64,000 bases of DNA, from NCBI GenBank assembly GCA_022605405.1, contig JABYQQ010000001.1, positions 124,001 to 188,000 of the forward strand. Direction: 5' to 3'. A model generated the notes under the pieces. That model was not told the DNA's origin and ran no database searches. It saw only the letters and a program-made list of their open reading frames with translations. Shown piece by piece: positions 2,783-40,687 of this stretch (the first letter of the stretch is position 1; each line of letters begins with the position of its first letter). Source of the DNA: Earliella scabrosa (Eukaryota > Basidiomycota > Agaricomycetes > Polyporales > Polyporaceae). The translations under genes and the position numbers were made by a program.

Positions 2783-2910
2783 ACGACGGGCATGGCCCGC
2801 TTTGTGGTACCTGGGAAATTGATAGGAAAATAGTGGGGAATCTATCATTTTCGGCCGATGTACTAGGTGTAAACTGAATCAGGACATTTCAACGATCCAG
2901 CCTATAACCT

Positions 2911-3228
2911 ACCTATTTCCTGGGCTCCAGGCCAGGTCAAAGTGCGTCAAAGCCGGACAAAAGTGGGAAACAAGTGGCCGACGTCACATACCACGTGATT
3001 TTCTGGCCCTGGGAAATCATCGAGCTAACGGCAAGATACGTTAAATGCCCATTGTTCGACCCAAGTATTTCCTACCTGTGTCCTAGACGAGAACACGTCA
3101 AGTAGCTCAACAAAAGCAGTTCTACAATAGCGCTATGGACAGATACATAATCGTTCCTAGCCTAGGAAATAGGTGAGCCACGCAGACGGAACATGTCTCA
3201 TTGACCATGCAAAGGAAATACATAGGAC
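2911..3228. promoter_or_regulatory. Subterminal TATTTCC / GGAAATA motif cluster
   Basis: The core TATTTCC or its complement occurs at about 2914-2920, 3066-3072, 3165-3171 and 3214-3220, in both orientations, in the outer unique part of the TIR (mirrored at 40242-40559). Repeated subterminal motifs are typical transposase-binding sites in TIR elements. That role is inferred. Confidence 0.35.
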
Positions 3229-3289
3229 ATGTAACGTCCCTGGGACCGGGAGCTCCCACCTGGAGCTCCCTGTGCGGGCTCTGCGGGAG

Positions 3290-3510
3290 CGCCAACGGGC
3301 TACAAAGGTGCGAGGACGGGCGACAAAGGCGCGCAGACGAGCTCCAAGGTCGCGAGGACGGGCTTCAAGGTCGCGTCAAAGAGCTCCTAGCTCGCGACTG
3401 TGGGCTCCAAGGTCGCGTACACGAGCTCCTAATTCGCGACCGTGGGCTCCGAGGTCGCGCGAAAGGGCTCCCAATCCGCGACCGTGGGCTCCGATGTGGC
3501 CCGAAGGACC
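3290..3510. repeat. Short tandem repeats in left TIR
   Basis: Degenerate units of roughly 24-36 bp built around GGGCTCCNAGGTCGCG and GAGCTCC recur through this interval. The right TIR carries the mirror image at 39960-40180. They create long open frames that are by-products of the repeat period. Confidence 0.75.
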
Positions 3511-3540
3511 CCCAGCTCACAACAGAGCAACCGAGCGCGA

Positions 3541-4060
3541 GCGCGGGTATCGCGAGGAGTCGCAGGCAGGAGTCGGTCAGGAGCGCCCGAGTCGCTCCTG
3601 CTGCATCTGTCGCTCCCAGGTCGCTCCCCAATTTCGCGCGAAGGGCTCCCAGAACGCAACGGTAGCAAGCTCGCGCGGGCCGGTATACGCGAGGAGTCGC
3701 AGGCAGTAGTCGAGACAGGCGTCGGCCAGGACCGTCCCTGTCGCTCCTGTCGCTCCCCAATTTCGCGCGAAGGGGTCTAGCTCGCAACGATTGCAAGCTC
3801 GCGCGGGCGGGTATACGCGAGGAGTCGCAGGCAGGAGTCGAGACAGGCGTCGGCCAGGACCGTCCCTGTCGCTCCTGCTGTACCTGTCGCTCCTGTCGCT
3901 CCCCAATTTCGCGCGAAGGGGTCTAGCTCGCGACGATGGCAAGCTCGCGCGGGCGGGTATACGCGAGGAGTCGCAGGCAGGAGTCGAGACAGGCGTCGGC
4001 CAGGACCGTCCCTGTCGCTCCTGCTGTACCTCAGGCTGTCGCTCCTGTCGCTCCTGTCGC
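3541..4060. repeat. About four tandem units of 105-147 bp in left TIR
   Basis: Units start near 3541, 3684, 3811 and 3957. Each has CGCGAGGAGTCGCAGGCAG, then GTCGGCCAGGACCGTCCCTG (degenerate in the first unit). The first three then have CCCCAATTTCGCGCGAAGGG and a GCAAGCTCGCGCGGGC boundary, while the fourth runs into the GTCGCTCCT array. Unit length varies through gain or loss of GTCGCTCCT steps. The right TIR carries the mirror set. Confidence 0.8.
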
Positions 4061-4394
4061 TCCTGTCGCTCCTGTAGCCCCCGCTACACCTGTAGCTCCC
4101 GTTACTGGGGGTCGTCCCCGCCGCACCCGTTGTTCCTGCCGTGCCCGTCGTGTTCGCTCCCTTCCTTCCCGCCACTTCAGTCGCTTTCGTAGCTCCTGCC
4201 CGTCCTCCCGCCACTCCCGCCGCTCCCGCCGCTCCTACCAATCCCTTCGCTCCCTTCGCTCCCGCCACTCCTGTCGCTCCCATTGCTCCCGTCTTTCCCG
4301 TCATTCTCTCCGTCCTGGCCATTCCAGTCGCGCCTGTCCCTCAGTCCGTTGCAATCCCTCCCACCCCACCCGCCGCTCCCGCTACTCCCGTCAC
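4031..4394. repeat. GTCGCTCCT-type minisatellite at inner TIR edge
   Basis: This is an array of degenerate 9-12 bp steps (GTCGCTCCT, CCGCCACTCC and similar). Read on the other strand in one frame it mimics a collagen-like Gly-X-Y protein. The inner edge of the right TIR (39000-39440) has the same array in opposite orientation, extending slightly past the exact TIR. Confidence 0.75.
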
Positions 4395-5525: not shown

Positions 5526-8011
5526 TCATCGTCTATCAGACCACGTACTCCAGGCGTCCTTGGGGAACTGCATTGGAGTAACGCGAGCGTCAACCAGCGT
5601 AGAGGCTAGTTCCCAGACGACATCGTCCACACTGGCATGATCGTCACCCAGACCTTCTTCATGGATTATTACGGGTGGATGCATAGACTCTGGAGAGTCG
5701 CATGAACGCCGGTACCACTTGCTGTGAAGAACGACGAGAGGGTGGCTGCGACGACCAGCAGTTGAGTACGAGGCCTCAGTAAGACATGATGAATCGTCAC
5801 TGACCTCTCTATGAAGTGCTCCCGAAGTTGGTCGAAGGTGTACGCAATCCGGCATTGCGGCCACCAACACCGAACGCAGGTCCAACGGGCGCGCGTTCCC
5901 ATCACATGAGCCGAACCCTCTTGCTCATCGTCCTCCATTTCCTTGACCTTACGAACCACTTCGGGGCGGACCTTCATCCAGTCTACTTGATCGTGGTTAT
6001 GCGCTTCTGCCATATGCTGCACCTGCATTGCCCCAGTGAGTGAACAAGATAGAAGAAGATTGTCTCTGCCCTGGCCCACTTACCGCGCGGCGCCATCCCA
6101 TGACCACCATGACTCGATTCATCTGACTGCATTCGCAGCATGCAAGTCGTATGTCGTCCAGCTTCGTGTCGCGGGTATCAAAGGCACTGAGATCCGTACC
6201 GAGCGCCTCGATAACCGTACGGACCAGGTCACCACAGGGACGCAACGGTAGAGGAGACCATGGCATGACACCCTGCGAATAAACGATGCAAGTGCGCCGA
6301 AATAAAGGCCCGCCGTCGGCGATGAGTTGTGAATACGCCCCATCAATCCACGGGGAACATTCCTGGTGCAGATTGGCCCAATCCGGGTCGAAGCCGTAGC
6401 AACAACTGTGCGTCATCGCTACTATTCCATGAACCAACTGCTTGCAGTGAGTACACCAGAAGAGCGCCGTAGGGGAAGCCAGTGGACTAGCATGGCTCGG
6501 AGGACACGAGGGCGGTTTACCCAACAGCAGGGTGACGAGAGCGGTTTCTCTAGCTTCTCTCCACTCGTGGACGTACGCGTCGACCATCGCTGAGTACGAG
6601 ATAGCAGGGATGATAACCGCATCGTGGAGTTGCACAAGGTGAGCAACGACAGGCAATTCAACGAGGTCGATAGCGGATGGCCATAGGATGTCCTGATCCA
6701 ACGCTAGCTCTTTCCGGCGGACGTCAAGAGTGGTGTCGATCATCCCCAGACGTGCCGACATAGCGCTCACTTGAGATCGACGGCACTCCAACGTCCGCCG
6801 ACTGTCAAGGAAGCGCCGCAGCTCGGGGAGATATTCCATCCATTCTGACGGCCGCAGGCTGTGAGTGGATGGTCTCATGACTTGGAAGATGGACTCACCA
6901 TCGTCAGAGAGAGGGCGCGGTCTCTTGAAGAATGCATATACACTCGCGGACAGTCCCTGCAGTTTAATACCCAGGTTGAGCAATTCCGAGTTGTATCCAA
7001 GCGCAACGAGCCGGTCCTGTATCCTGTTAGAACACATGTGAGCAGTGCATCATGTGCATGCTGACCGAGAACCTCGGACGCACTTCTTGTACCGCTCCAA
7101 CCTGACGCTTTCCACACGTTCGCGTTCAGCCTCGTCAGCGATCATCTTCCATACATGGCACTTCTCGGCATGCTGCAAATCCAGGTCAGTACTTGATAGG
7201 ATCAACGAGGACTTACTGACCTTGTTGCGCTCCGACGTATAGGTGAGCCACTCTTGAACGACGACGTCACGTTTGGAGGGGTCACAACGAAGGGCATTGC
7301 GCAACTTCAATTGTTCCGGGAGATGGTACATGGTCACCGTGATCGACTCGTCGTCATCTAGGACAGGTCTCGGCGTATTGTCAGCGACTGAAGCACAATA
7401 CGCACCGGTAACAACCTCGCGCCGGACGGAGGGTATAATCTGGGCGGCCTTCCCTGCGATCAACTTACGGAAAGTACCGATTCTGAGGTGTTGATGAGGA
7501 AGTGACCTGGTCGTTCTTCATAACAGCCATGCCTCTTTAGCGACAACGGACGAGCTACAGGCACGGGATGACGCACCGCACAAGGTCACATCGAGCGCAG
7601 TACCGGACATAGAATTGCCATATCGGTATTTTGCTTGTATCATCCACAGCAAGGCAACGCTGGCAGTGCTGTTCAAAGCACAACGCGGCAAATCTCATCT
7701 CGCTCAACCATTCAGGACAGTCAGGAAGTCCCGGGACGTTCCGACGTGTCCTTCGCCAGTGGAAACTAGCGTCAGGTCCTGCGAGATAGTTGTAGGTCTC
7801 CTTGTCGACGCGCGACAGACTGAGAAGGTCTCCGGGTTGAAGGTAGGTGCAAATCTATAGCTCAGTAATATTCAGTAATGGTTGCATGACGGAGTGAGTG
7901 GCGCACCTCCGCCAGAATGTCTTCCGGTACAGTGAGCCAACTAAAGCGCGGTCGTAGCACTTCATCGCCCGATATGTGTTCGTTAGTTCTAATCTTCTTC
8001 AAGGGGGACAT
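5526..8011 (-). CDS. F-box protein with C-terminal Cys-rich segment
   Basis: F-box proteins act as substrate adaptors of SCF ubiquitin ligases. The N-terminus has the F-box (VPEDILAE joined across a 52 nt intron to ICTYLQPGDLLSLSRV). It is followed by the Agaricomycete pattern WRRTRRNVPGLPDCPEW and FEQHCQRC, a second Cys pair CARC, and a helical region. The C-terminal part has CVRCWWPQC and a downstream His. Introns inferred include GTGCGCCACT..CTATAG, GTCAGTAAGT..TTGCAG, GTACAAGAAG..TAACAG, GTAAGTGGGC..ATGCAG and GTCAGTGACG..TTCACAG; joining RLER to IQDRLVALG restores both frame and family pattern. The junction near 7470-7560 is less certain. Start chosen at ATG 8011; 8098 is possible if there is no upstream intron. 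It is the outermost left gene, transcribed toward the left TIR. Its substrate is unknown. Confidence 0.82.
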
Positions 8012-9320
8012 GATTGACACTGAAGACAGCGGTGGTAAGGGATGAAGAACGCACCAGTTCATCACGATGACAGGGAGGAAGGACTGTCGACCAGACAAAG
8101 AGTCCTTTTGCTACAGTGGAGGCTCTTGACGCCTGTCATCGGCCCGTTCTGTGCGAATTGGTGAGATATACTCCAATCTCACTGCTGCATAATGGGGGTG
8201 TATTGGGTAGTAGAGGCACGCAAGTTGAGAGGAGCAAACTTCATATTCTGCCTCAGGCCTCAGCTGCATGCAGCGGGGCCTCAGGTTCTTGCAGCGAGCG
8301 CTCCTCCCGGGCGACGATCCGCAGCGCCCGCGCGCAGCGTGCTTCTACGGAGTCCGTGCAACAACCTCTCTCTATTCCTCTCAAAGCGCTGCCTTCGTAA
8401 CGAATACCCCGGTATACAGTGAACTATATGCAGGACGCGACGTTGCTGTTGGTCTATATTGCATTTCTGCGGCAACAAGTACATCAGGACTCCTTCTGGA
8501 CTCACCAACACGTCCAGTCTTCCCGTACAGACGACATACCCACCTCAGAGCCGTCCTCCGAGGCCCACTCGTCCGTGAACGGGGGTGGCGATGAACTCGC
8601 GCACAAGCTCAGCAGGGAGGGGCGAGAGGTGGCGGCGGGATTCAGAGGGGGGACACGTCAACGTTGAAGGGGACGAGCCGGAGAGAGGGATGTCGGGCTG
8701 CGGCCCCTTGGTACTTCGAGAGAGGGATAACGTGTCAATTCAGTCGACATTCGACGTGACTGAGACGGCCTTGAGGTCCATCTGAAAGATGGCCGACGTC
8801 ATTTCCTCCCTGGCCTCGTCCTCGGCTTCTTCCAACATCGGGCTTCGTGTCCATCACCGCGTGCGCCGAACTCGCCGAGCAGGATGTAATGCGCACCTAC
8901 AGAGATGGAGAGCTGCTTGTACAGCGCACTGGATCGGGCTTGAAACGGGCAGACGACGCATCTTTTCCCAGACGCGACCAAGTACGGGCGCGCCCCATCG
9001 GAATCCTTAGGTTGTCCGCGCGACGTTGGTCACAATTCTGTGGCTTTGATAAGGAACTTCATCGAGATATGTACATAGCCGGCGCGGATCGTGAGCGTGC
9101 TGAGCAATTTGGAGCGACGATGCGCACTGGATGAAGGTGGAGAGAGAAGTGGGATAGGCGCCGGAGTCTCCCCGAGAAGCTCCCCGGAGCTCCCGAGGGG
9201 ACTGCGTCTCTCATACCTCCTCTCCATATCTCTCCCTCCTCTTTCCCTCTCTCTTTATCTCCCTCTTCCTTCCTTTCTCTCTCCCTCTCTGTCTGTATGT
9301 CTTTCTATCTCCTTCTCTGG

Positions 9321-10729: not shown

Positions 10730-11433
10730 TCATCCTATCCACCACTCACGCTCCTGTGTCTGCGGTACCGGCGGCAAGGGGTCGAGCCGGGGTATCGCCG
10801 TGGCCAGCCCGCGTCGAAGGGCCATCTTCATCTCCTCCTGACGGCTCTCGGTGTCAACTTGAGCGTCGTTGATAACCTTCACGCACGCCAGGTAATCCGA
10901 ACGCTGGTCAAAGCGTAACTTGAGTAGCAGAAATTCGGTGTCCAGAGGGACGAGCGTCACAAGCGAAGGGGCCTGCGAATCGTTGTGGTATCAATGCTTG
11001 CGGTGAGTGAAGAGCTATAACCGCAACAACTCACTTTGTTCACGCGCAGGAGCACGACGTTATCGTCCGGTGCAGTATACATGCTCACATTCTCGTTCAG
11101 AACGAAGCCAACTTGCGCAGTAATCGGGCTAGGTGCACGCCCACACTCGAGCACGTTGCACACGAGGAGCCCTACTGCATTTGCTGTACGTTGAGCCAGA
11201 TGATCGTTACAGATCGCTATACCTCCACTCACGCTCTTCATGCCTGACTTCCACAACAGCGATGTGGGCGGTGGTCCAGTCAGACACTCCGCAAATGGAA
11301 TAGGAAGCCTTCCCAGCGCTGAGCGCGACGGAAGGGATATCGAACCAACTGTCCCCCGCAACATACAGGTAAGAATATGCGCATGCGAGGACCGCGGAAC
11401 TTACGAGCTAATGGGAGCTTCAGTGGCGGGCAT
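10730..11433 (-). CDS. Small unknown protein, paralogue of the gene at 23350-23909
   Basis: This is a four-exon gene of about 177 codons. It starts MPATEAPIS at ATG 11433. Introns GTAAGTTCCG..GGACAG (phase 2), GTGAGTGGAG..GTACAG (phase 1) and GTGAGTTGTT..TTCGCAG (phase 0) join to one open frame ending at 10730. The protein has alternating hydrophobic stretches (VGLLVCNVLECG, DDNVVLLRVNK, TEFLLLKLRF) and a charged helical tail, with no signal peptide or membrane span. I recognise no family. The gene at 23350-23909 has the same size class, the same order of segments and two introns at matching positions and phases, so the exon model supports itself. Confidence 0.65.
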
Positions 11434-11838
11434 TGGTTGGAGAAAGAGTTGGATGGTAGCGAGCAGGGAGCGAGGGGTTCATATGGGAGGCAATGACAAA
11501 GGAGCTCACAGAGATAATCGGAGGAGGTACGCGCGTTCCGGTCCGACAAGCAACAGTGGCGTGGGCACGGAATCGCGGCGACCGCACTTGTGTGGTCATT
11601 GCTCCGTCCCAAGTCGAACCAACCGTCTGCGTCTTGCCTCGGGCTCTCGCGTATGTCGTGTCGAACACATGATCTGAACAAGAGCCGACGCTGCGGGCGT
11701 AGTGGATATCAATACGTGACATGCTATTCAAAGTATTTGAACAAATCTGCGGAAGGAGTATTCGCATCGGCGGCTGCTCGTCGAGACTGGAAGAAAGCAC
11801 CCGGAGAGATACGAGAGTCCCACCCCTCACAGTAGTCC

Positions 11839-14800
11839 TTAGCTCTGTATGTGATGGTGTCAGTGTCACGAATGTTCCAGAGCGACATGATCATACCCGA
11901 TCCAATCCCTTCACAATGACGCAAGGCTTCCCCAAACCGGTCGGTGTGTAGTTCAGTGCGGCAAAATGGGACAGAATGTCGGGAAGCCTGATGATGCGTA
12001 CAGCCGGCTTGAAGCTATTGTAGTAGAGCTGGGCATCCAGGTCGGGGAACCCGAGGAAAGGATCATGCTTCTTGTCTTCGTCGGCAAGAGGCCTGTACTC
12101 GCGAACGACGACGAACGGCTCGACGAGGAGCTCGCCTGCTTCCTTTCGGCGGTGGTAGAAAATGCTATCGATGGAAGCAGCGGTTGTGGTAGTGGAGTCC
12201 ATTGACTTGATGATGACCAATGAATTGCGACGTAGCGAGCGGGAAGTGGAGAATCGCACGTTGCCTCGTGTGACCCTCTCGACGAATTGTGCACAGCTGG
12301 GGAGGATGGGTCGTCCCCGAGTCATGACGCCGTGGATGGATTGAAACAGAGGGCCGTCAGGGGAGTCAGAGAGCAGGTCCACCAGTTTGTCGTAAAGCTG
12401 GCGAGGCAGTTCTGTTTCCAAACGCTGGGAGTACTCGAACGGATTAGTTGGCTGGGTGAGGAATGACAAGATGTCCGTGTATCGTGTCCCCTTCGTGGCG
12501 TCCTTGAAGGCGTCTCGGAAAGCCTTCATCCAATCCGCGTACACAGGCAGATCTGGCCATCGAACTGAGCTGACCAGCCATCGGAGCCCTGAGCCCATAT
12601 AGAAGTACCGAATGAACGTGAGGGGTATCTGGTCTGAGAAACACAGAGTCAGGTCATGTACGAAGACAACGAGCCAGATTACATACGAGGCTTATGATTG
12701 GTATTGAGTCGTTGCAGAAGACCGTTGAACCGTTCAAATGGGAAAGCCCACCATCCATGCACCGGGCCGAAGAGTAGGAGACAGATCTTCAAATGAAGCG
12801 CCATATGATGGTTCGGAACAAGCTCATGGTCGTACAGGTCCCGCAGACCTTTGACGTAGAGTTCCATATGGTGATCAAAGAGATCGGCTCTAGCGACGCT
12901 CATGGATCTACGAGTCGCGGCATCGACGGCCACCACAAGATGAACGAAGTTACGTAGGACCGCGCGTTGCTCTTCGGTTGCGCCTGCGGAGCCCCAGAGC
13001 CTGACTAACGTCATCGCAAGGTAGATCGTGCATACGGTTCTCCACTGATCGGCCTTCAGGCTGCCGTGGCTGGCCTCACCGAAGTTCCGAGGAGGCTTCT
13101 CAACCCAGGTCGGCACGGAGATGTTGGCGATATCGTCTTGAACCTGCTTGAGCACATCTCCAGTGAAGACATAGTATTTGGCCGTGTGATCGCCGTCCTC
13201 TTCGTCGTTTCCTGAGGGCTCGACGACGAGGTGGAAATGGTTCGTCGACTCGCCAAGAGGGGGAGGAAGACGGACAGTTCCGCCGATGTCGACGATTGGC
13301 TCAATCTAGACAGGTATCATTCAGACCCGAACAGTTGGAAGAGGTATCAAACTAGAATACGTACCCAAGCTATGAGGGCGGCAGCAATCTGTGCCCGCGA
13401 AGGTTCCTCGTGGGATAGCGCCACCCCGTTGTACTCGGCAACGGCAAGCAGGTAGTCCTTGCGCACGCGTGCCAGGGATTTCTCAGATCGCTTTTCTAGG
13501 TACTTCATCACGCGATCGAGTTGCTGCTGCTGTTCCTCTGGAGAATGCGTGAGGGCGTCTTTAGCGGCAGGAGAGGGTACTTTGATCTCGGCCAGGTTCC
13601 AGACATCCATGCAGTGATGACGGAGCTCTCCAAGAAAGAGATTGTGCATCGCGTCTACGACGGCATACCTCGTCGGGTCCCAGTACTCCAGCCGGAGAAG
13701 CTCGGACCAGCGTATCCCGTGCGCCTTGAAGATCCTCTCCTTTTCAGCCTTCGTGTCGGCATCCCTCCAGGACCTGGCGATCCGAAGATGCTCCTCCCAC
13801 GTTATCCTCGCCGGCCAGGTAGAGCGATCAGCGTTAGACATGTCGTCTAGGGTGATCGGACAAAACGAGCAGAAGTGTTTGGAGCTATGCGACCCGAAAC
13901 CGGCAACCTTCCGAAGGGCAGGAAGGTCGCAAACGAGGGGAATGATCGCGGCGCGGACAAGTCTCCCAAACGGACGCTTCGCCGTTCGCGCCACGAGAAT
14001 GCCCTGATGCCAGAGCTCAACGAGCTCGTCAACGAGAGGGCGTAGCAAGTGATTCAGCTCCGTGACTGAGGGTTCCCTAGGACCGGGGATGACTCCGACG
14101 AGATACATGTATTCCGGACGGAAACGCAGATGGGGAGGTAGGTTCAGGCACACCATATAAATCCCGCCCACGGAATGAGACTTGCCGCCTCGCTTGTTCA
14201 TATGCGGGTTGAACCAGTCGACAAAGAGACTGAAGACTAGGTGAAGCGAACCGTCAGCTTGGACAGAAAAGCGAGTTTTCCCATCAGGTCCTATGAGATC
14301 GCGTATCGCGGGGGAGTGCATGATGTCCTTCCAGGTTGAGTCGTCGATCCCGTCGGGTAAGTCCCAAGATGTCTCCAGATGGTCCTCGACGCCGAGTCTC
14401 ATGAGGAGGGTTGCGATATAGGACTTCATGGAGTAATAGGGGAAGGGCATGATGGGACGAAAGATCCTTCGGGTTGCGTTGTTCTTCTTGGAGGAGCGGT
14501 TTTGCGTGTAGACGAGGGGAGTGCCACATATGCGCTTGCGCGTGAGCGTGTGTGTACACGTGTGGGGATAAGGGTCGTCTTCGCGGGCAGGATCTGGGGC
14601 ATATATGGCGAAGCAGGTAGGGCAAGCGGCGTGTATAGTGATTTGCGGCTCCAGATGAAGTGCAGATAGAGCAGTTCGGATGTCAACCGGGATGCGGCGT
14701 AGAAGGGCGTCTTGGGATGCCGAAAGGACCTTCCGAGCGAGGGGATTTTGCCAAGTCATCATGCCGAAGAGAACAACCTTCAGAGTTGCCAAAATGAGGC

Positions 14801-15967: not shown

Positions 15968-16204
15968 CGACGCACTGTAGTCTTCGTATGTCGAAGGGTG
16001 GGAGGAGTGGGAGGGTGGTCTGAGGTCAAAATTCAGAGAGACTGTCGTGATGGAGTGCTCTGGAGATGATTTCCGAGTCCGACACACCCAAATCAAGTTA
16101 CCTTTCTGATTATGCCGGGTTATTCCTTGGATGATACACTGTCCATTTGTACACATGGATTTCCAGCCTGATATATAACCTGTTCGACCAAAGTACGCAA
16201 ATTA

Positions 16205-17685: not shown

Positions 17686-17962
17686 CATGGCGAGGACAAA
17701 GATGCAAGCCAGTGCCACTTGGCCCAACGTGGGTGGCCAGTAGGCGTGACGACAGCACCCGTGTCACAGCACCACGAGGCAAATCATACATGCGCGCGTT
17801 GGGTGCAAGCAGCAAAGACTAAGGTGGAGATGATAACGTCGATATTCATTACAGGTCGAACGGTAAGCTATGCAACATGAACGAACAGCGGATGGGGTTG
17901 GACACGATTCTGAGCGTGACGTTAGCATCGATGATGAGGACCGGAGAAGACAACTCACTGTG

Positions 17963-26637: not shown

Positions 26638-27157
26638 GGCGTGTATGTGGTGTGAGTTGAAGGGGGGGAAGAGTTGAGAGCGACCTCCGTCGAGCTCCCG
26701 CCGTAGTCTCATATAGTGCGTGATCACAAAGACAGGTAGCAAACGTGGCGTAGAATAAAGAAAGCGGACTCACCGGGGTGATGTCATGGAGGTCCTGACG
26801 AACCCGCAGAATCTCGCAGCGCCCTATCACGATGCGTATCTTTCTCGCCCTCATTCGCCAGAAACTGTGCACAGAGCTGAGCAGTACAGGGAGGTTGTCT
26901 GCGGGCCCGGCGGACTCGCGAGTCGGACGGACTTCCGTCCAACGTTGAACTTAACGGCTCACGCGGGCCGCTGGGAGCTCTATGATCCGACTGCGAGCGC
27001 GCGCCAGCCTGCGCGCGGACTCCGCGGTTCTCAGCCATGCTCGCGTTCCTTTGTTATGTTCGAAGATGCGCCCCCTCCTGTCCCTGCCATGTTGCTCGTC
27101 TTCAATCTGGAGGAAGGGCGCGACTCTTCGCCGTGACGACTAGCCACTCTGAACACC
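26638..27157. promoter_or_regulatory. Divergent intergenic region
   Basis: It separates the minus-strand gene at 26637 from the plus-strand gene at 27158 and so must hold both promoters. No TATA box or defined motif stood out, and the ORFs inside it are short and unsupported. Confidence 0.4.
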
Positions 27158-30022: not shown

Positions 30023-30227
30023 CGTTACGAATTGTTTGTCCTTTGTATGATATCGTCGCTTATGTCAACTCCATTGCACCTTCTTATCTGTGTCTCATTG
30101 CACCCTTGACGGCAAAGCCTCCTCTCGCGAATTGTGATGCATCACTAACAATGGACTATCACCCTCGCCACGGTATAAGTTCGTGGACAACGGGTCAGCG
30201 GAGCGTACGCCCTCTAGATCACTCGAC

Positions 30228-31395
30228 ATGGCTCAACGGCCCTCCAACCACACGCCGTATACCTTCGGTGCTCGTGTGCTGGTTCGCCGCAACTATGTCA
30301 CCGACCTCGTATACTCTGCCGCAGTCGCCCCGGACTTCGTAGGCGCCGCGGAGATGACGATTACCCGTCGTTTCCATGACGAGTGAGCTTGCTCGCCAAA
30401 TCTTTTGTGTCCTACCGCTAACAAGCTCTCGTAGCCCAGCACTAGATGGCAAGATGGATATGTCGGATGACGGGCAGGCTCCCGTCGTTCCGCCTGCTAC
30501 ACGAGCTACCACGCCGCTCCGCAAGTTCCCTCAGGACCCGTCTGCGCACATCCCAGTGCAGTCGTCCTCGTCAAGCTCGTCTACGACGACGCCGCGTTCG
30601 TCTACATCGCGATCGCGGTCGACCACTCCCGCCCTACCGGATGACGACGACCAATCACCGCCTGAGCCGCAAACAACGCCATCGCGTACCTCGCCAGCAC
30701 CCAGCACCCAGCAGACACACACCCGCAAAACCAGCAGCTCCAGGCGCCCTCTGAAACGTTCGTCGGTGAGGACCACCTTCCGCGTCGAACCAGTGCCGCC
30801 ATCCACTCCGTCGGTCCCTAGCACCAGTACAGTAAGTTCTCTCCTCGCTCCCCCATCAATACACGTCTGATTGTACCGCATAGTATGTGCACTATGAAGA
30901 TGATGACATCCGTCGCCAGTACAAACGGGATTACAAGATCTGCTCGCCGACAGACGAGGAGAAGAGGCTCGACGTTAGGTATGATACGGCATGGTTCTAC
31001 TCTAACGGCAACTACTCTCTGTCCGCCCCGCCTCCTGCTATGGCGAAGCATCCGGAGTTGAAACTCGGAGACATATTCTTCCACTGTGCGCCTCATCTCC
31101 AGGAGCCGCAGATGTGGGTGTGGATGGAACGGGCTGGGGGACAACCATTCTGGACCGCTGTGTACAAGGGGGACGTGCGACCCGAGGACGACCGTAAGCT
31201 TGCCATTGGTCAGGACGACGATGGACTTCCGAAACCCAACTGGGTAACCCACGAATGGTATCGCAAGTTGGGCTACAAGGAGCGGCAGGCCGCGAGGAAG
31301 AGTAAAGGGAAGGCTAAAGCAAAAGCAAAAGCACGTGAGTAAACAGTCTGTCCTCCGGACGGTCCGCATACATACTGATTGAAATGCCAGTCTGA
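30228..31395 (+). CDS. Unknown protein with Ser/Thr-rich linker and basic tail
   Basis: It starts MAQRPSNHTPYTFGARVLV. Intron 1 (GTGAGCTTGC..TCGTAG, phase 2) joins RRFHD to DPALDGKMDM. A Ser/Thr-rich disordered stretch follows. Intron 2 (GTAAGTTCTC..GCATAG, phase 0) joins STST to YVHYEDDDIRRQYKRD. The conserved-looking part includes DTAWFYSNGNYSLSAPPP and WVWMERAGGQPFWTAVYKGD, then a Lys/Ala-rich tail interrupted by a last intron that leaves a two-codon final exon ending at 31395. No known family. The aromatic-rich core suggests a small beta domain. It precedes the SUN-domain gene by about 180 bp on the same strand. Confidence 0.58.
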
Positions 31396-31473: not shown

Positions 31474-31576
31474 CTCAATTGTAGTGGAATTGTGATATGT
31501 ACTTATCGACGAGTCTTGTCCGATGTCTTGTTTGCCTTCCTCACTTGGCTTGACCAACAACCACACTCTACTCCCC

Positions 31577-32679
31577 ATGTCGAGCAACCCTGGCGTGACC
31601 GACAAGCTCGTCAATCCCTTCGATGGGACTGCGTTCCTTGACGATCTTGAAGGTCAGTATCGTGACATTTAGACCGACAGCCGACGTACGAGGATTGAGT
31701 GTGTGTAACAGGTCGCAAGCATGTACGATTCACCGAGCCAACTGGCCCCTCCTCGCCTCGCTCCAAGAGTGCTGAGCCCAAAAAAGGCCCACCCGGTGCT
31801 CGCAAATCTCCAGGCGTGGTCACCCAGAAGCCGGCGCCATCTGGTATGACCATCGGGTGGCTCAGGTGGTTCCTGCGGGTTGGCTTATCCGTCCTGTCGC
31901 TACTGCTCGCCCTTTCTATCGCATTCATCCACAACCACTATCCTGATCATCATGGCTTCTCTTCGCGCATCGCTTCACGGTTTCCCGCCCTTCCCCGCTT
32001 TGCTAGGCCGACTGCACCCCACACAGTCCCGTTGTACTTGCGGGAGTATATCGACGCAGCAATCGAGACCGCCATCCTGGCTCAGATTGGTCAACGCGAT
32101 CATGCCCTCGAAGAGGGTGATACCCGGATAGTCTTCTCTCTAACTTCAAACGACTCTACCCCGTCCCCGTCGCCCAACCTCGACAAGCACCCTGCTCGCG
32201 TTATCATCCGCGACAATTCCCATGGGGGACCTTGTTGGATGATTGCCTCCAGTCAGGGTCAAGTCGGGATCTCTCTTCCGTACGTCGTGTACCCTACAAG
32301 TGTCACACTGGACTACGTACCGCCTTCCGACCCTGCGGGGAGAGCGCGAGCACCTAGGAATGTACGGTTGTGGGGAATGCTGGAGGGGAAAACCAACGTC
32401 GAGCGGTACGAATTTGTGCGACCATTCTTCCCTCCCGTCTTCCTTCAACATGCTGGTCCGGCGGTGACCCAAGGGCATCCGTTCCTCCTACTAGTAGATG
32501 CGGAGTACCAGTCCGCTGCCAAGCACGTCCAGACTTTCCCTGTCTACCAACATATACAGGACGCACAACTGGTCTTCGGCTTGTTCGTGTTGGAGATTCT
32601 GAACAATTGGGGAGATAAGCACACCTGCGTCCATCGTGTACGAATTCACGGTAGAGCCGAGGCTGATCCATTGGAATAG
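31577..32679 (+). CDS. SUN-domain membrane protein
   Basis: SUN proteins sit in the inner nuclear membrane and bind KASH partners across the perinuclear space to form LINC complexes. Exon 1 starts MSSNPGVTDKLVNPFDG; a phase-1 intron (GTCAGTATCG..TAACAG) leads to a 325-codon second exon. The product is about 348 residues. It has a basic Pro/Ser-rich N-terminus, one transmembrane span near residues 79-99 (FLRVGLSVLSLLLALSIAF), a short helix, and a SUN domain from about residue 188 to the end. Diagnostic blocks are CWMIASSQGQVGISLPYVV, YPTSVTLDYVP, APRNVRLWGM and LEILNNWGDKHTCVHRVRIHG. The luminal coiled coil is much shorter than in animal SUN proteins. It appears complete and unbroken. It sits in a same-strand run with the neighbouring unknowns. 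Confidence 0.85.
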
Positions 32680-33055
32680 GTGAGTACTTCCTCCGTCGTT
32701 AAGCCATGCCTCGCCCCGTCTGATGTTGTGCGCCACAGGATGAACCCCCATTATTTACTAGGAGTTCTTTGTATCATACCGAGCGGCTCATTGCGTAATT
32801 CATGTCTTTCTGCGAAACAGAGGCGCCGTTTCTGCTTTGCAAGGACTTGTCAGATGTTGTTCTTTGGGCGGGTTATAAGCGTATGCGCGATGTTCCCCGC
32901 TCCTCACCGCTTCCCCCAGCTCCCTCCACTTCGCTCGTGCACCCGCGTTGCCCCCGTTAGAACACAGCGCGTCACTTGCATCAGTGAGTCCTGATATCGC
33001 GCTGCCAGAGCTGTGGGTACTAAGACGGCTCCGGACACAGCACACGTCGCTCCTT
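32680..33055 (+). other. Intergenic spacer
   Basis: It contains the SUN gene 3' end and the presumed promoter of the next gene. Open frames extend through it, but the first well-placed ATG (MDQQYPAGYYP) is at 33056. Nothing else is seen. Confidence 0.5.
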
Positions 33056-35841
33056 ATGGACCAGCAATATCCGGCTGGTTACTACCCATCGACGGCTGAG
33101 CCGTCGACCCATCAGCAGCACCAGCAGCACCAGCACCCGCAGAGACAGCGACAACATCAGCCGGAGGGTTGGCGATCGCCCATGTCGTTTAACGACATCC
33201 CTCCTCAGCATGGTCCCCAGCCCGCGTCGCCCCAAGGGCAGTACGAGACCTTTGCCCAGTATGTTCGTCGTACACAGCCCCAACCTCACCAGCAACCGCA
33301 ATTCAATCCCAGTTACCCCTTCCTCCCGGGCGACTCTGGTCGTGCTCCACAGTATGCCCCGCGAGGCATGCCGTACCAAAGCGAACACCCTCAAGGCCGT
33401 TGGGCCTATTTTACGGGTCCTGTAGATGCGACTATGCCTACTCAGTATAGCCAAATCCCCACCAGCGGACCGACGCCCGCTCCTCCACACCATTACATGC
33501 CTCCCCCTCCTGGAGGTACACGACCGGTCCAGGAACCCGTCCAACTCCCAGGAGGGTTCGCGGCACCTCGAAGCTATCCCGCAGGGAACAGCGCATACGC
33601 GCAACCTGAGCGAGTGGCCTCGAAGCGAACCCGTGAACCTGCTACGGCAAGCACGTCCCAAAACGAGACACGCCCAGCCCAGACCAAGACAACGTCTACT
33701 GAGTGCGAGACGAGCACCTCTCCTCCAGCTGAATTCGCCGCCATGTTCAGTGCGGAAGGGGTATGTTTTGCTGTCTTGTTCAGCGAGAGAGGCAATGCTG
33801 ACGGATTCGTGGACCTGCAGGGCGAGGCTGAAGCGTCAGCGGTATGGAATGCGTTACCCAAAGATGACAGATCTCGTTTGCTCGCCTTCTACTCATCGTC
33901 CCAGCGGACGCGGGTCACTGACTCCCGTCCAATGGACGTCGATGAACCTGGGACAGTACGTGTGGTGAATTCTGCCCAAGCTGTTGTCTAATCCCAGCAT
34001 CATCGTCTACTAAGTCTCGCAAGAGACCATCTACATCTCCAGGTTCTCCGCCGAAGCGTCAGGCCACTGCACAGGCCCCGCCACCGACACAGGGGCGCAA
34101 TGCCAAAGGATCGGCAAGCGGGCCGCAAATTCGCACCCGAGTCAAAACTGCATACGTTGATGATGCGGACGACGAATCCGTACGTTGTTCACATCTCACG
34201 CCCATGCTTCGCTTGACCATGCCCCAAGGAGGAAGACTACATTCCTCGAAGCAATGGCCCCGTAGGGAAGGGCGTCCCGAAAGATTCTCCCCGGCAGGTA
34301 AGTAATGTGGCAACCCGTACGTCACCATATATGAGTCTCACTGGTCGCATGATCAGGGGGCACAGGAGGCAGCACGCGCGTTCGGTATGCAAGGCGGGAC
34401 ATCACCCGAGACATCTTACGACGTCCCATCTGGTCCTAACAGCATCGGCGTGATGTTACTCAATGCCGCCCACCGAACGGACGAACGATTCGAGAGGATC
34501 GAGTACGTGTGCTACTCCACATGACTTCGGATGTTTCCACTGAGGGGGCGACTAGAACCATTTTGACCGATATTGCCGACCAGCGGGCTGCCAATAGGTC
34601 TAAGGGAAAGGCCAAGCAACGCTCGGGACATAACGCTCGCAAGACAACGTCTAGGCCGGAGCCCTGTGACTCTGAGGAAGACGAGGAAGCGGAGAACGCG
34701 CGTAAGCTCGCGGAACAGATCAAGCTGCAGAAGGAGCGCGATAAGCCCCATATGAACAGTCTGAAGGTCAGTATTGATCGATTGACAATTGCCTGGATGT
34801 CTTACGATGCTCCTTTCTCAGGCCTTCATCCGCGACTTGGTCGACGTGAAGTTACTCAAGTTGAAGGATATGAAGCAACTTCCGCGCAAGCATGGCCGGC
34901 CTACAGAAGCACAGCGGGCGGCTTACGAGAACAGCGAGGGGCCGTACTTCACCATGGAGAACTTCACGATTGACCTCACCAATGGCTGGAAGGGCTGCTC
35001 GTTCAATCGCGGAGCCGAGGCCTTCATTCTCGACACCTTCTTCACCATGCATGCTGGTGGCTGGTATAACGATCCTCCCGTCCCTCCTCGCCTGCTCTGT
35101 CGGGGCGTATTGGCTGGCGTCTTGAAGAGCCACGTCGACTACCTTCGTAGCGAATACAAGAGATTGACTCAGCCGCAAACGGATGCGACCGAGAAACGCG
35201 CGAGGGAGCGCCTTCTGCGCAACCGGTTCACTGCTCGTCGGAACACGGTAAGCTGATGTATTTCGTTGCTATATGGATGTATTCTGATAGTCCCAAAGAC
35301 CTACAAGATTCGCGCGAGGGTCATTAACAGGCACGAACTAGCTAAACACAAGGCTCTCTTCGACACGCTCAGGGGACGTCATATGAGCGGCGACGAAGCA
35401 GTGGTGGAGGGCGTGGACGATGATCGCCAAAAGCATCCCCGAGCGTACCACATTGTCGAGGCCGCCTGGCAAAGCGAGGAGTTCAAGGCTTTCGTCCGCG
35501 TGCTCGATGAATGGCACATCGAAGACTGGCGACTCAAGGTCGGCGAGAAGCTCCGTGGGGGCAACAGCCCGCGGGTACGTATCCCGCTTGCAAAGCCCCG
35601 GGTCATCAATTCTCCAGCCCCCATCGGTCTCTGGAGGAACTGCTACAGTCCGTCGTGGCTCAGGTCCCTCAAGGACCATGCACGCGAACAGCTACACATC
35701 ATCGACGAGGATTATGATTTCAGTCTGCCCGAGTACAAAAGGCCCGATAATCTGGACAACATTGACATCGATGAGGAGGATGACGGGGAGGATGACGACG
35801 ACGACGACGAGGACGAGGAGGAAGATGTGACCATGTCGTAG
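33056..35841 (+). CDS. Unknown multi-exon protein with Gln/Pro-rich N-terminus and acidic tail
   Basis: It starts MDQQYPAGYYPSTAEPS. The first exon is Gln/His/Pro-rich and disordered. At least six short introns follow (for example GTACGTTGTT..CCCAAG, GTAAGTAATG..GATCAG, GTACGTGTGC..ACTGAG, GTCAGTATTG..CTCAG, GTAAGCTGAT..CAAAG), giving about 750 residues. A basic segment with TKSRKRPSTSPGSPPKRQ resembles a bipartite nuclear signal. The folded C-terminal third contains EQIKLQKERDKPHMNSLK, PYFTMENFTIDLTNGWKG and LLCRGVLAGVLKSHVDYL. The protein ends in a long Asp/Glu run. I recognise no named domain. The nuclear signal and acidic tail suggest a nuclear protein. Confidence 0.66.
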
Positions 35842-35916
35842 GATTCATAAGCGAGCTAAATGTTTTGGTCAATGTTTATTGACCAGGGTCTAAGTCGCGT
35901 GACTCGCACACCCCGC

Positions 35917-35932
35917 GCGCGACGCGTCGCGC
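35917..35932. repeat. Perfect 16 bp palindrome
   Basis: GCGCGACGCGTCGCGC lies between the stop of the preceding gene and the recombinase-bearing remnant. It might mark the edge of the inserted retroelement fragment. No function is shown. Confidence 0.6.
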
Positions 35933-35948
35933 ATACTTCTTACATCCT

Positions 35949-37409
35949 TTGTGCATTCTCTCGTATATCTTCGCTTCCGCTCGTCTTCCTCTCTCTCCAC
36001 CTCCTTCCTCACCCGCGTGCTCGAAAGTCTGCGACTTCGAGTACCTTGTTGCTTTTTCTCAGGTCACGGCTCCGCGCCACCGGAAGCAACCGCCCCGCGG
36101 CCCCGACGGTCGTTTTTTGAAGTCCTCCGAGACTCCGCCGACCTCCAACGACTTCGACATGCCCTCTGGCGACGGCCCCTCTTCTAGCGGAGCGTCTAGC
36201 TCTAACGCGACGACGCCCGCGACAGTCCCAGCCACGGGCACCAGCCAGAACGCCACTCAGAGCACCGGATCAGGAACGTCTGCAGCTAGCACTGCTGCCG
36301 CGCAAGCCGTGGCAGCAGTCACGAGCCAAGTCAGCTTCACGCCGGATCAAGTCCAGGTCCTGCAGTCCTTCGCAGCAGCGCTCAGCATCCAGAACAACGC
36401 TGCGCAGCCCGCGCCCACAGTTACGGCAGCTGCGCCCGTGACGGCGGCTGCGTTCCCCGCATTCACGTTCGCGCCGTCTTCTGCCCCTCCAGCTGGTGCG
36501 TCTCTCCTCGACCTCTTTCCCACTATCGATGGGGCCCTCCTCCCGGAGATCGCGCGGCACGAGTTTAAGCCCAGCGACCTGTATAAGCTTGACACGCGGC
36601 ACAAAGATCGCGCTGCACGGCAAGTGCTCGAGCTGAACAGCGGGGTGGTCTCGGTGCGCGACCAGGCGCCCCGCGACTACCCTTCTTTTCACTCCCTTTA
36701 CTTATATACCGCTGAGCACTATCCAGACCCTGTGTATGTACAGTCGCTGCTGCATATAATAGACTATGGTGCTGCCATAGGATTCTCGGGTCCACAGTCC
36801 GAACAAGGATGCCGCAATCTCTCCACCGCTCTGGAGCACCCCGATACTGTCACCGCCGACATCTCTGCCCTCTGCTCGCGCCAGCGCATGCACGGCCCAT
36901 TCCCAGCTCCGCCGCTGCCCCTCTTTCGTGTCTCTCCTCTCGGAGTGGTGGTCGGTCTTCTACTCGCGGTGGAACGGCGTCCGCCTCATCGCACCATCAC
37001 GGCCAACCGTTCATGTCTTCACCGATGCGAGCGGGGCCGAGCGAAAAGGCATCGGAGGAGTCTTTGGCAATGAGTGGTTTGCCAGCCGTGTACCGCGCCG
37101 CTTTCGCAAGCGGGACGTTCAGTTCAAGGAACTGTTCACAGCTGTTCAGGCAACGCTCCGCTGGGGACAGCAATGGACTGGTTGTCATGTGGTCTTCCAT
37201 ATTGATAACCAGGTCATTGTTGAAGCCATTGAATCAGACCGCAATCGCTCACGTCACACCATGTCGCTGCTGCTTATGCTTGCCGCGTGTCTCCAGTTCT
37301 CTTTTTCGTCAGAATGGCTCCCATCGAAACAGAACGCGCTTGCTGATGCAGCCTCTCGCTTTCAGTATTCCCTCCTCTTCCAGCTCGCCCCGCACCTCCG
37401 CCTGAAGCC
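35949..37409 (+). pseudogene. DIRS-like gag/RT-RNase H remnant with reverse transcriptase deleted
   Basis: Frame one (to about 36940) has a low-complexity gag-like start, the block EIARHEFKPSDLYKLDTR, then EHYPDPVYVQSLLHIIDYG and HGPFPAPPLPLFRVSPLG, which normally leads straight into a reverse-transcriptase domain. Instead the frame shifts at about 36935-36950 into SEWWSVFYSRWNGVRL, a segment that normally precedes RNase H. RNase H itself is present with TDAS, E in FKELFTAV, D in HIDNQ and D in NALADAASR. The whole catalytic RT region is therefore missing. A further frame change separates this from the recombinase ORF. YR retroelements of the DIRS group encode RT-RNase H plus a tyrosine recombinase, so I read this as an internally deleted copy. 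Confidence 0.75.
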
Positions 37410-38501
37410 ATGCTCGCCGAACCCCCAGCTGAGTGGTATGAGACAAATGCTCATTTCACTCGACAAGTCGCCCGCTACCTCTGGTTTGGACTCGCATCCA
37501 GCACTCGCAAGTCGTACAGCACCGGCCAGTGCGGATATCTCGACTTCGTGCGCCTCCATCCAGCATACTGCAACCCCGATGGTGGGCTTCTCCCGGCCAC
37601 TCAGCGGGGAGTCATGGAGTGGACCGCTTCGCTCGGAGCACGCGGTCTTCAACCCAAGACCATTAAGAGCTACCTCTCCAGCCTCCGATCCCTGCATGTC
37701 GACGCCGACCTCCCCTTTACTGCTTGCGAGTCTCCGCTCGTACAGCGCCTGCTCAGGGGCATCAAACGCTGCCACGGCGAGCGCGAGCGCAACCCAAAAC
37801 TCCCCATTACCGTCAACATCCTGCGCCAAATCTGCAACGTCCTGGATGAGTCGAACTCACCCTACGACAACATCATACGTGCGGCGGTCACCCTAGCCTT
37901 TGCAGGATTCCTTCGCTGCGGCGAGTTCACGGTTCCGAAGCGCGACTCTGTCTTCAATCCAGCAATTCACCTGGCACGCGGAGCAGTCCAGTTCTGGCCT
38001 GACATGGAGTCTGCGACGCACATGTCCCTAACCCTGCCAGCTTCGAAGACTGACCCATTCCGCAAGGGCGTCACAGTCATGATAGCGGCAGCCCCCGCTT
38101 ACTCCACTTGTGCGGTGACCGCGCTGAAGTGCGTCTTCCGCCAGGAGTTCCTCCTCAATGACTCGTCGCCTCTCTTCCCTGGTGTCACAGGTCCTCGCTC
38201 CGCGCTCTCTCGAGACGTCTTTCTGGCACGGCTCAAGACGATTCTTCTCGACTTGGGCTATGACAGCACCAAGTACTCGGGCCATAGCTTCCGCCGCGGC
38301 GCTGCGACCTCAGCAGCAGCAGCGGGATACACCGACCTCGAACTGCAGCAGATGGGGCGCTGGCGCAGCGACGCGTTCAAGCTCTATGTTGACGTACCCC
38401 GCGATCGTATCCTCCATCTCTCAGCCCGACTCCATTGGGCCGATCCTCACGCTCAGCCTTACGAGCCTCCGGCTCTCCCCTTCGCTCCTTCTTTGGCTTG
38501 A
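37410..38501 (+). CDS. Tyrosine recombinase (DIRS/YR-retroelement type)
   Basis: Tyrosine recombinases break and rejoin DNA through a Tyr-DNA intermediate. This 363-codon frame is open from ATG 37410. The N-terminal SAM-like part has FGLASSTRKSYSTGQCGYLD. The catalytic part has Arg169 (AFAGFLRCGEF), Lys213 (LPASKTDPFRKG), His292-x-x-Arg295 (GHSFRRGAAT), Trp319 (QMGRWRS) and nucleophile Tyr326 (DAFKLYVDV), so the tetrad is complete. It overlaps the end of the RNase H frame by up to 487 nt in another phase, as in compact YR retroelements. It is the last gene before the right TIR and points toward it. It may be just a nested remnant, or it may help move the large element. Confidence 0.85.
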   Translation: MLAEPPAEWYETNAHFTRQVARYLWFGLASSTRKSYSTGQCGYLDFVRLHPAYCNPDGGLLPATQRGVMEWTASLGARGLQPKTIKSYLSSLRSLHVDADLPFTACESPLVQRLLRGIKRCHGERERNPKLPITVNILRQICNVLDESNSPYDNIIRAAVTLAFAGFLRCGEFTVPKRDSVFNPAIHLARGAVQFWPDMESATHMSLTLPASKTDPFRKGVTVMIAAAPAYSTCAVTALKCVFRQEFLLNDSSPLFPGVTGPRSALSRDVFLARLKTILLDLGYDSTKYSGHSFRRGAATSAAAAGYTDLELQQMGRWRSDAFKLYVDVPRDRILHLSARLHWADPHAQPYEPPALPFAPSLA

Positions 38502-39075
38502 GCTCGGCCCTCCCGGTCGCGCAAGAGAGCGGTGGCGACGCGAGTCGGATGCCCGCGCGCAGTTCGCAGCGCGCGCCCAATGCATTCCCTTTCGCCCTGC
38601 CCGAGTTCACGCGTGATTAGACGGTATCAGAGGAATGATGTGGTTCATGCGGTTGACTCGTCTGACATTCTCCCACCTGTGCACTCTATGGCGCGATACA
38701 TATTACTTCTCCTTAGGCCCTACCAGCGGCATAGATCAGGCGCTCCCGCAGAGCGAATGGGATGCCGCGACGCGACAGCCGATTGAACGCCAAAGCGTAT
38801 GGGCCCCCAGAACATGGATCCAGCAGGTAGCGTGTTGAAGGGCGGGGCGTGGATGGCTGCAGCGACAGGGCGCAGCACAGGGTTGCTTGCCTCTCTATTC
38901 GCGGGCGTCGCGATCGAACGCGAGGAACGGTGATGCGCATTGGGAGGGTATATCTCGAGATCTCTGTCTCGCCAGTTGCGTCAGGTTGCGTCAAAAATCA
39001 CACGACGGGAGCGACGGGAGCGACGAAAGCGACGGGAATGACGGGGGTGCGCTGGGAATGACGGGAGGGGCGCGA
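38502..39075. other. Right inner spacer, no gene
   Basis: It contains the 3' end of the recombinase unit. From about 39000 it holds degenerate GGGAGCGAC repeats that continue the minisatellite beyond the exact TIR boundary. ORFs here are shadows of that repeat. Confidence 0.5.
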
Positions 39076-40687
39076 GTGACGGGAGTAGCGGGAGCGGCGG
39101 GTGGGGTGGGAGGGATTGCAACGGACTGAGGGACAGGCGCGACTGGAATGGCCAGGACGGAGAGAATGACGGGAAAGACGGGAGCAATGGGAGCGACAGG
39201 AGTGGCGGGAGCGAAGGGAGCGAAGGGATTGGTAGGAGCGGCGGGAGCGGCGGGAGTGGCGGGAGGACGGGCAGGAGCTACGAAAGCGACTGAAGTGGCG
39301 GGAAGGAAGGGAGCGAACACGACGGGCACGGCAGGAACAACGGGTGCGGCGGGGACGACCCCCAGTAACGGGAGCTACAGGTGTAGCGGGGGCTACAGGA
39401 GCGACAGGAGCGACAGGAGCGACAGGAGCGACAGCCTGAGGTACAGCAGGAGCGACAGGGACGGTCCTGGCCGACGCCTGTCTCGACTCCTGCCTGCGAC
39501 TCCTCGCGTATACCCGCCCGCGCGAGCTTGCCATCGTCGCGAGCTAGACCCCTTCGCGCGAAATTGGGGAGCGACAGGAGCGACAGGTACAGCAGGAGCG
39601 ACAGGGACGGTCCTGGCCGACGCCTGTCTCGACTCCTGCCTGCGACTCCTCGCGTATACCCGCCCGCGCGAGCTTGCAATCGTTGCGAGCTAGACCCCTT
39701 CGCGCGAAATTGGGGAGCGACAGGAGCGACAGGGACGGTCCTGGCCGACGCCTGTCTCGACTACTGCCTGCGACTCCTCGCGTATACCGGCCCGCGCGAG
39801 CTTGCTACCGTTGCGTTCTGGGAGCCCTTCGCGCGAAATTGGGGAGCGACCTGGGAGCGACAGATGCAGCAGGAGCGACTCGGGCGCTCCTGACCGACTC
39901 CTGCCTGCGACTCCTCGCGATACCCGCGCTCGCGCTCGGTTGCTCTGTTGTGAGCTGGGGGTCCTTCGGGCCACATCGGAGCCCACGGTCGCGGATTGGG
40001 AGCCCTTTCGCGCGACCTCGGAGCCCACGGTCGCGAATTAGGAGCTCGTGTACGCGACCTTGGAGCCCACAGTCGCGAGCTAGGAGCTCTTTGACGCGAC
40101 CTTGAAGCCCGTCCTCGCGACCTTGGAGCTCGTCTGCGCGCCTTTGTCGCCCGTCCTCGCACCTTTGTAGCCCGTTGGCGCTCCCGCAGAGCCCGCACAG
40201 GGAGCTCCAGGTGGGAGCTCCCGGTCCCAGGGACGTTACATGTCCTATGTATTTCCTTTGCATGGTCAATGAGACATGTTCCGTCTGCGTGGCTCACCTA
40301 TTTCCTAGGCTAGGAACGATTATGTATCTGTCCATAGCGCTATTGTAGAACTGCTTTTGTTGAGCTACTTGACGTGTTCTCGTCTAGGACACAGGTAGGA
40401 AATACTTGGGTCGAACAATGGGCATTTAACGTATCTTGCCGTTAGCTCGATGATTTCCCAGGGCCAGAAAATCACGTGGTATGTGACGTCGGCCACTTGT
40501 TTCCCACTTTTGTCCGGCTTTGACGCACTTTGACCTGGCCTGGAGCCCAGGAAATAGGTAGGTTATAGGCTGGATCGTTGAAATGTCCTGATTCAGTTTA
40601 CACCTAGTACATCGGCCGAAAATGATAGATTCCCCACTATTTTCCTATCAATTTCCCAGGTACCACAAAGCGGGCCATGCCCGTCGT
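39076..40687 (-). repeat. Right terminal inverted repeat (1612 bp)
   Basis: This is the mirror of 2783-4394 with no difference found in the parts compared. Its outer terminus is GCCCGTCGT followed by the duplicated GCGCC. The internal repeat layout is the same as in the left arm, in reverse order. Confidence 0.95.

Follow-up and report, generated by a model that had tools for sequence, protein, structure and literature searches.

What kind of element accounts for a 38-kb block of DNA with long terminal inverted repeats (TIRs) in the window analysed here, a 64,000-nt stretch of Earliella scabrosa contig JABYQQ010000001.1? The best explanation, to which we give a probability of about 0.88, is a giant, probably autonomous transposon of the CACTA (EnSpm) class, belonging to a group of about twenty related insertions in the genome, which encodes a tnp2 transposase and, among other conserved genes, a SUN-domain protein. 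The element extends from position 2782 to position 40688 of the window. The arms of its inverted repeat are mismatch-free over 1,612 bp inward from 2783 and 40687, as an earlier note on this DNA had reported, and the next outer base also pairs, so that each TIR is 1,613 bp long (left, 2782-4394, plus strand, starting CACGACGGGC; right, 39076-40688, minus strand, ending GCCCGTCGTG). While the inverted-repeat arms claimed in that note are thus real, the ACGACGGGC end which it gave has to be replaced by the extent stated above. Reading of the flanks gave one copy of the target-site duplication, CGC, on the left (2779-2781) and one on the right (40689-40691).

The flanks of the element are part of a tandem duplication, the second copy of which is free of the insert. 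This second copy contains a paralogous empty site, GGAGCGCGCCCCAG, at 51475-51488, with an unduplicated CGC at 51481-51483. The junction of the joined flanks, GGTGCGCGC followed by CCCAG, differs from the empty site by one base, and 572 of 604 alignment columns are identical when about 300 bp of flank per side are included, which bears out the unoccupied site described earlier. The tandem duplication (~10.8 kb) lies at window positions 40787-64000, the insertion sitting within one copy, and a DUF6535 gene is found in one of the copies (45199-47853, minus strand).

The TIR was used to search the organism's own genome (51.67 Mb, 48 contigs), and the relatives are named here by contig. Inverted TIR pairs were found at C28 389394-424563 (35.2 kb) and C33 152035-236291 (84.3 kb), both starting CACGACGGGC and flanked by duplications of TCT and ATA, respectively. 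The C28 TIR measures 2.3 kb and is one base short of full identity, and that of C33 shows 21 differences in the first 600 bases. Another element, C3 2559175-2640313 (81 kb), has the target duplication AGA. The 5-bp duplication proposed in the earlier note, GCGCC, is not sustained by these copies: GCGCC is present on both sides of the window element as a chance extension, CACGACGGGC is the start of the window, C28 and C33 copies alike, each with a duplication of 3 bp, and C28, C33 and C3 do not accommodate a 5-bp one. A 4-bp duplication (G plus the duplication) fits the window, C28 and C33 and is ruled out by C3. The note had suggested looking for more copies with such ends; they were found in this genome, with duplications of 3 bp instead of 5. 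They include short non-autonomous copies at C7:2364170-2364461 and C11:1031520-1031811 (292 bp each) and at C7:940859 (L028, 175 bp), in which the 3-bp duplications match in three cases out of three (TCA and TCT for the two 292-bp copies, TTA for the 175-bp one).

All ten end pairs compared open with CACG and close with CGTG, four starting CACGACGGGC and six CACGGCGGGC, a non-independent count since the pairs were retrieved by similarity to such ends. Their 3-bp duplications match when read straight in six pairs (C43 repeating C39), by cross-paired flanks in three, and not at all in one. The copies at C1 1417492-1441856 (referred to below as C1b) and C22 86632-110996 agree in length (24,365 bp), in their TIRs, which are identical and ~1.55 kb long, and in the distance between tnp2 and SUN, a likeness judged on these three properties; C1 is flanked by TCT on the left and AGT on the right, C22 by AGT on the left and TCT on the right. 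C2 (1484333) is flanked by TCC on the left and TAT on the right, and the truncated C11 copy (1640667) carries TCC, as had been predicted before its flank was read. C39 and C43, with TAT on both sides, share both flanks and therefore are a single locus represented twice; C2 has the same right flank. An artefact of assembly or segmental duplication, in which the inverted repeats would stem from mis-joining, could account for these swapped and shared flanks, which imply that identical copies either confuse the assembly or have recombined. Such an artefact is hardly credible for the element itself, since the window copy is bounded by TIRs of its own and by matching copies of CGC and has an unoccupied paralogous counterpart, and since five other end pairs (one a repeat locus) have their own matching 3-bp duplications. 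For the swapped flanks of C1/C22 and C2/C11, either the assembly switched between identical copies or these copies crossed over. The window copy is a real and probably recent insertion of a giant CACTA element with many genes.

The transposase gene (10733-16354, minus strand) is made of several exons, and its open reading frame (ORF) at 13350-15122 matches Transposase_21/tnp2 (PF02992) with an E-value of 4.3e-17 and 62.5 bits, against a Pfam cut-off of 28.6. Motif patterns of the CMC type, picked by eye following PMC12730594, start in order at 14228 (D), 13931 (D), 13877 (CxxC), 13655 (DAMHNL) and 13098 (E). Exact and ordered patterns for these putatively catalytic D, D, CxxC, H and E motifs could be read in five cases out of five in the window and C1b, four in C28 and three in C33. 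In the same paper, fungal EnSpm elements are classed by CAC...GTG ends and 3-bp target duplications. The combination of such ends, a 3-bp duplication and a tnp2 transposase therefore assigns the element, as judged from its sequence, to the known CACTA/EnSpm superfamily, and not to a new class or to anything Starship-like; the earlier note had known of no described family with these ends. The match list contained no Plavaka or KDZ transposase (PF18759, PF18758) within the elements of the window and C28, and a single Plavaka locus falls in the inserted middle of C33.

The outer 480 bp of the TIR (2782-3261) contain GGAAATA motifs in both orientations. This motif, chosen by eye ahead of counting, occurs there four times in the window, four times in C28 and six times in C33, in both directions, with a shuffle mean of 0.07; none of 300 shuffles reached the observed count, and the window interior contains 0.00 copies per 480 bp. 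No copy of GGAAATA was counted in C1b, where GACCTTT is present twice (3 of 300 shuffles reach that number). Behind the GGAAATA zone, at 3295-3492 inside the TIR, are GC-rich tandem repeats of ~21 bp of the GGGCTCCAAGGTCGCG type, and similar repeats of 21-22 bp are found in C28. In plant CACTA elements, the binding sites resemble such subterminal repeats, and by analogy the GGAAATA repeats are candidate transposase-binding sites. As expected from its class, the tnp2 transposase would bind these subterminal repeats, excise the element and reinsert it with a 3-bp stagger.

The other genes of the element form a conserved core under purifying selection and not the variable cargo that the earlier note had expected. 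Among them are a gene of leucine-rich look, labelled LRR by eye and without a Pfam match (17064-19008, minus strand); a WD40 beta-propeller gene (24352-25700, plus strand; PF00400, E 1.3e-12 in ORF 24226-24711); a short gene, G9 (30736-31339, plus strand), with an ORF of 152 aa at 30884-31339; the SUN-domain gene (31568-32676, plus strand); and a gene with exons near 34306-34512, 34801-35253 and 35278-35838, G12 (34306-35838, plus strand). Among the best 120 tblastn matches of the window ORFs to C28 and C33, gene order is the same throughout, except for 43 kb of DNA inserted amid the C33 element, which contain a second SUN match in unrelated order; protein identity is mostly 50-85%. With overlaps removed, window and C28 share 53 blocks, all of them collinear, which span 5.5-35.7 kb and cover 16.9 of 34.7 kb, a few lying on the strand opposite to the gene. 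In C1b, the tnp2 of which shows 51% identity, the LRR-like gene, WD40, G9, SUN and G12 are present as well. The ratio of non-synonymous to synonymous substitution rates (dN/dS) between window and C28 was 0.05-0.44 in those 18 of the 19 chosen ORF segments for which the ratio was finite, and only one of them exceeded 0.27 (G9, 0.05; G12, 0.10 and 0.17; one WD40 exon, 0.06; SUN, 0.18), although these values are rough, with dS above 1 and near saturation and with ORFs picked for conservation.

The association of these genes with tnp2 was observed throughout the genome. From 53 tnp2 matches, 33 loci were used, the remaining 20 being pieces of listed loci or weaker matches. Within 100 kb of the 33 loci lay 24 of 25 SUN, 23 of 25 G9, 26 of 28 G12 and 17 of 18 LRR loci, where 2-4 would be expected under uniform placement, with the duplicates C39/C43, C1/C22 and C2/C11 counted separately and with a radius that can reach a neighbouring element (e.g. 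C28 494831, C14). All four partners were present within this distance at 16 of the 20 related tnp2 loci, namely 19 with at least 49% identity plus C43, the repeat of C39, and at none of the 13 loci with 37-43% identity; SUN itself was found near 23 of the 33. The identity of each partner to its window counterpart rises with that of tnp2 (Spearman 0.76 for SUN, 0.77 for G12, 0.56 for G9 and 0.61 for LRR). A query-independent Pfam count gave 25 SUN loci (44 rows, merged by joining the pieces of one locus) and 42 tnp2 matches, with 22 of the 25 SUN loci at most 100 kb from PF02992 and 4.1 expected; when C43 is added, its tnp2 coming from a separate match list, the number is 23 of 25. Could the partner genes be neutral passengers that an ancestral element captured once and that are slowly decaying, with SUN having no role? 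The poor conservation of two genes described below, G4 and G11, and the scarcity of partners around the 37-43% tnp2 group in these searches would agree with this. It is nevertheless improbable, given the low dN/dS of G9, G12, the WD40 exon and SUN at dS above 1 and the persistence of partners down to about 50% tnp2 identity. We read the conserved core as that of a family of multi-gene CACTA elements of giant size (24-84 kb), apparently with a nuclear-envelope gene in it.

The stretch at 35883-38498 (plus strand) has a different history. It contains RNase H-like and tyrosine recombinase ORFs, and its Pfam matches, to RVT_3 (RNase H-like) and to Phage_integrase (E 0.0013), are both below cut-off; the earlier note was right that a DDE transposase and a tyrosine recombinase are both present, the former as the tnp2 domain, the latter as a weak match. 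An RNase H-like ORF followed by a phage-integrase ORF is what we take to be the order of a DIRS-like retroelement. The five ORFs tested from this stretch had no match in C28, C33 or C1b, and for this reason the tyrosine recombinase is best regarded as a passenger from the remnant of a DIRS-like element, nested in the transposon and outside its core. A role as Starship captain is ruled out by the same lack of matches in the three relatives. These data also bear on a cargo element in the Starship sense, in which host passenger genes are moved and the transposase or the tyrosine recombinase is the only gene of the element itself. The many non-transposase genes, the presence of a tyrosine recombinase and the WD40 gene, a common host gene type, would suit such an element, but the content and order shared with C28 and C33 and in large part with C1b, the genome-wide tracking of tnp2 by the partners and the five unmatched ORFs make it very unlikely.

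A self-synthesising element of viral type (Polinton/Maverick or an integrated DNA virus) that relies on a CACTA transposase, in the way that Teratorn employs piggyBac, would likewise combine large TIRs and a fixed gene order with a dozen genes kept by purifying selection. Against it, Pfam scans of 30 ORFs from the window, 29 from within the element, and of ten more, nine from C28 or C1b, brought up no polymerase, packaging ATPase, protease or capsid family above its cut-off. Some of the scanned ORFs match no Pfam family, so a very divergent virus gene is compatible with these scans. The match of a coiled-coil ORF of C1b to the herpesvirus UL78 model (E 0.063) is at chance level, and two scans of viral contigs, with 1 and 45 pattern-matching stretches, confirmed no relative. 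We give this reading very little credence.

Several observations weigh against a CACTA element with a conserved core. The pentamer CACTA is absent from the element starts, the first five bases being CACGA or CACGG, and TIRs of 0.7-2.3 kb are long for CACTA elements. Four of the ten end pairs (C1b, C22, C2 and C4) lack a straight-read duplication, cross-pairing accounting for three of them. At C4 830938/937083, the CACGGCGGGC ends are 106 kb apart and belong to an inverted duplication running past them into the flanks; as the inverted identity continues beyond the ends, this locus was not counted as a clean insertion. As for the core, G12 lies at the opposite end in C1b, no C1b match was found for gene G1 (see below), and SUN is missing within 100 kb of 10 of the 33 tnp2 loci (nine of the 37-43% group and one cut off by a contig end); the near-saturated dS and the choice of ORFs mentioned above count on the same side. 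Structure prediction gave no function for G9 (mean predicted local distance difference test score, pLDDT, 66; of 578 PDB matches with E up to 10 the best had 0.11, and none reached 0.001) or for the last G12 exon (pLDDT 39.6, uninformative).

Between the C4 ends (830938-937083), matches to tnp2, G12, LRR, G9 and SUN are found. At C33:177532-180500 (L015, L016), the C33 element contains another SUN gene along with a C1b-type TIR-like stretch, so that giant elements seem to be nested within one another.

The remaining genes of the window copy are G1 (5532-8107, minus strand), which has several exons, no Pfam family and matches in C28 and C33; G4 (20717-22864, plus strand), with weaker conservation between window and C28 (dN/dS 0.23 and 0.44); G5 (23377-23915, minus strand), which is conserved; a weakly conserved segment, G7 (26117-26640, minus strand), delimited from the window-C28 blocks; a conserved segment of one or two genes, G8 (27152-30383, plus strand); and G11 (32996-34188, plus strand), a low-complexity Q/P-rich gene with weak conservation (33-34% identity). 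With about a dozen conserved genes counted, the earlier figure of about 15 genes was fair. A profile search of G9 against the PDB returned a single match (E 0.98). Matches to G12 also occur near some of the most distant tnp2 loci. In plant CACTA elements TnpA is the second transposition protein, and G12 is a candidate for such a protein, perhaps a second binding protein. The partner genes in general would serve the element rather than the host, although we hold this with less assurance.

The window SUN ORF (31699-32676) matches PF07738 with an E-value of 1.8e-17, and the C1b SUN with 2.1e-21; the nearest PDB structures to the former are those of SUN1 and SUN2 (E 5e-11). The protein has a single N-terminal hydrophobic helix followed by a C-terminal SUN domain. 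An N-terminal hydrophobic stretch is found in all four SUN proteins inspected (window, C33, C1b and C28), which is a weak test of a membrane helix since the same scan flags the tnp2 and LRR-like ORFs, and the N-terminus is basic in the window and C33 proteins. Just upstream of the C1b SUN lies an ORF with hydrophobic stretches (L062:1817-2995), a possible membrane partner for which no window counterpart was noted. Two of the 25 SUN loci stand alone, away from tnp2 (C12:1197994-1198515 and C26:210014-210473), and are probably the host's own nuclear-envelope genes. As to the origin of the element SUN genes, blastp puts their proteins at 30-33% identity to the C12 SUN and at 35-64% to each other, but a second aligner gave 38% between the window and C12 proteins, no less than with C1b (37%).

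To our knowledge, a SUN-domain nuclear-envelope gene has not been described in a transposon, and no report of one was found among the titles and abstract openings of the top-listed papers of the open literature. SUN proteins hold persistent DNA breaks at the nuclear envelope. Our best guess is that the element SUN would anchor transposition intermediates or the donor break there, and a role in meiosis or nuclear competition is possible. In mushrooms, the nuclei of mating partners compete (PMC5031618). We tentatively propose, as a speculation with the odds against it, a mushroom-type fungal transposon lineage with its own nuclear-envelope anchor, in which SUN would link the element, its breaks or its nucleus to the envelope or spindle pole, leading to copy gain at repair or meiosis or to an advantage of the nucleus in dikaryons.

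The elements share with CACTA/EnSpm transposons (CMC group, including fungal EnSpm) the CAC...GTG ends, 3-bp duplications, Transposase_21/tnp2 and subterminal repeats, and differ by their length of 24-84 kb, TIRs of 0.7-2.3 kb and about a dozen conserved genes including SUN. In previous reports, EnSpm elements of the red alga Chondrus crispus reach 16-20 kb (PMC6431247), a soybean CACTA element 20.5 kb (PMC2613891) and a mobile CACTA element of Cryptococcus about 7.5 kb (PMC12810828). The CACTA size known to us would thus roughly double, and copies of 24-38 kb without large inserts already exceed it. The fungal DNA transposons carrying TET/JBP genes (Kyakuja, Plavaka, EnSpm and others; PMC12730594) likewise have a stable accessory gene that probably aids the element, but those of the present elements comprise SUN, WD40 and several genes without a name; no TET/JBP family was found in the Pfam scans of window, C28 and C1b ORFs, and the terms 'SUN domain' and 'Sad1' have 0 occurrences in the main text of that report. 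Polinton/Maverick elements and Teratorn are also large TIR elements with fixed gene sets, from which the present ones differ by a CACTA transposase and by the lack of a viral family above the Pfam cut-off among the scanned ORFs. Starships, too, are giant, with many genes and target duplications; here, in contrast, a tnp2 transposase, long TIRs and a conserved gene set are found, and no conserved tyrosine-recombinase captain. The earlier note had rightly set this giant TIR element, with its target duplication, empty site and many genes, apart from Starships, but its restriction of Starships to ascomycetes is contradicted by captain-bearing Starships reported in the basidiomycete Tremella fuciformis (PMC13066641). 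Nor did variable cargo appear in the relatives compared, C28 and C33 having one gene order and C1b sharing the core. The largest element of a Marasmius repeat library, about 42 kb and of unstated kind (PMC9674265), may be a relative, and the family may already be known under another name. The class itself is known, and it is the conserved core including a nuclear-envelope gene that is unusual.

Taken together, these data would reveal a cut-and-paste transposon of eukaryotes whose many genes form a stable core kept by selection, in place of variable cargo. They also carry a warning for annotators, as 23 of the 25 SUN-domain loci of this genome are near tnp2 and seem to be transposon genes rather than host genes. 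SUN as a core gene raises the question of whether selfish elements act through the nuclear envelope. An element with its own envelope anchor would, if this reading is true, be a transposon manipulating nuclear architecture and not only DNA, and a SUN protein acting in this way would matter for genome conflict in mushrooms.

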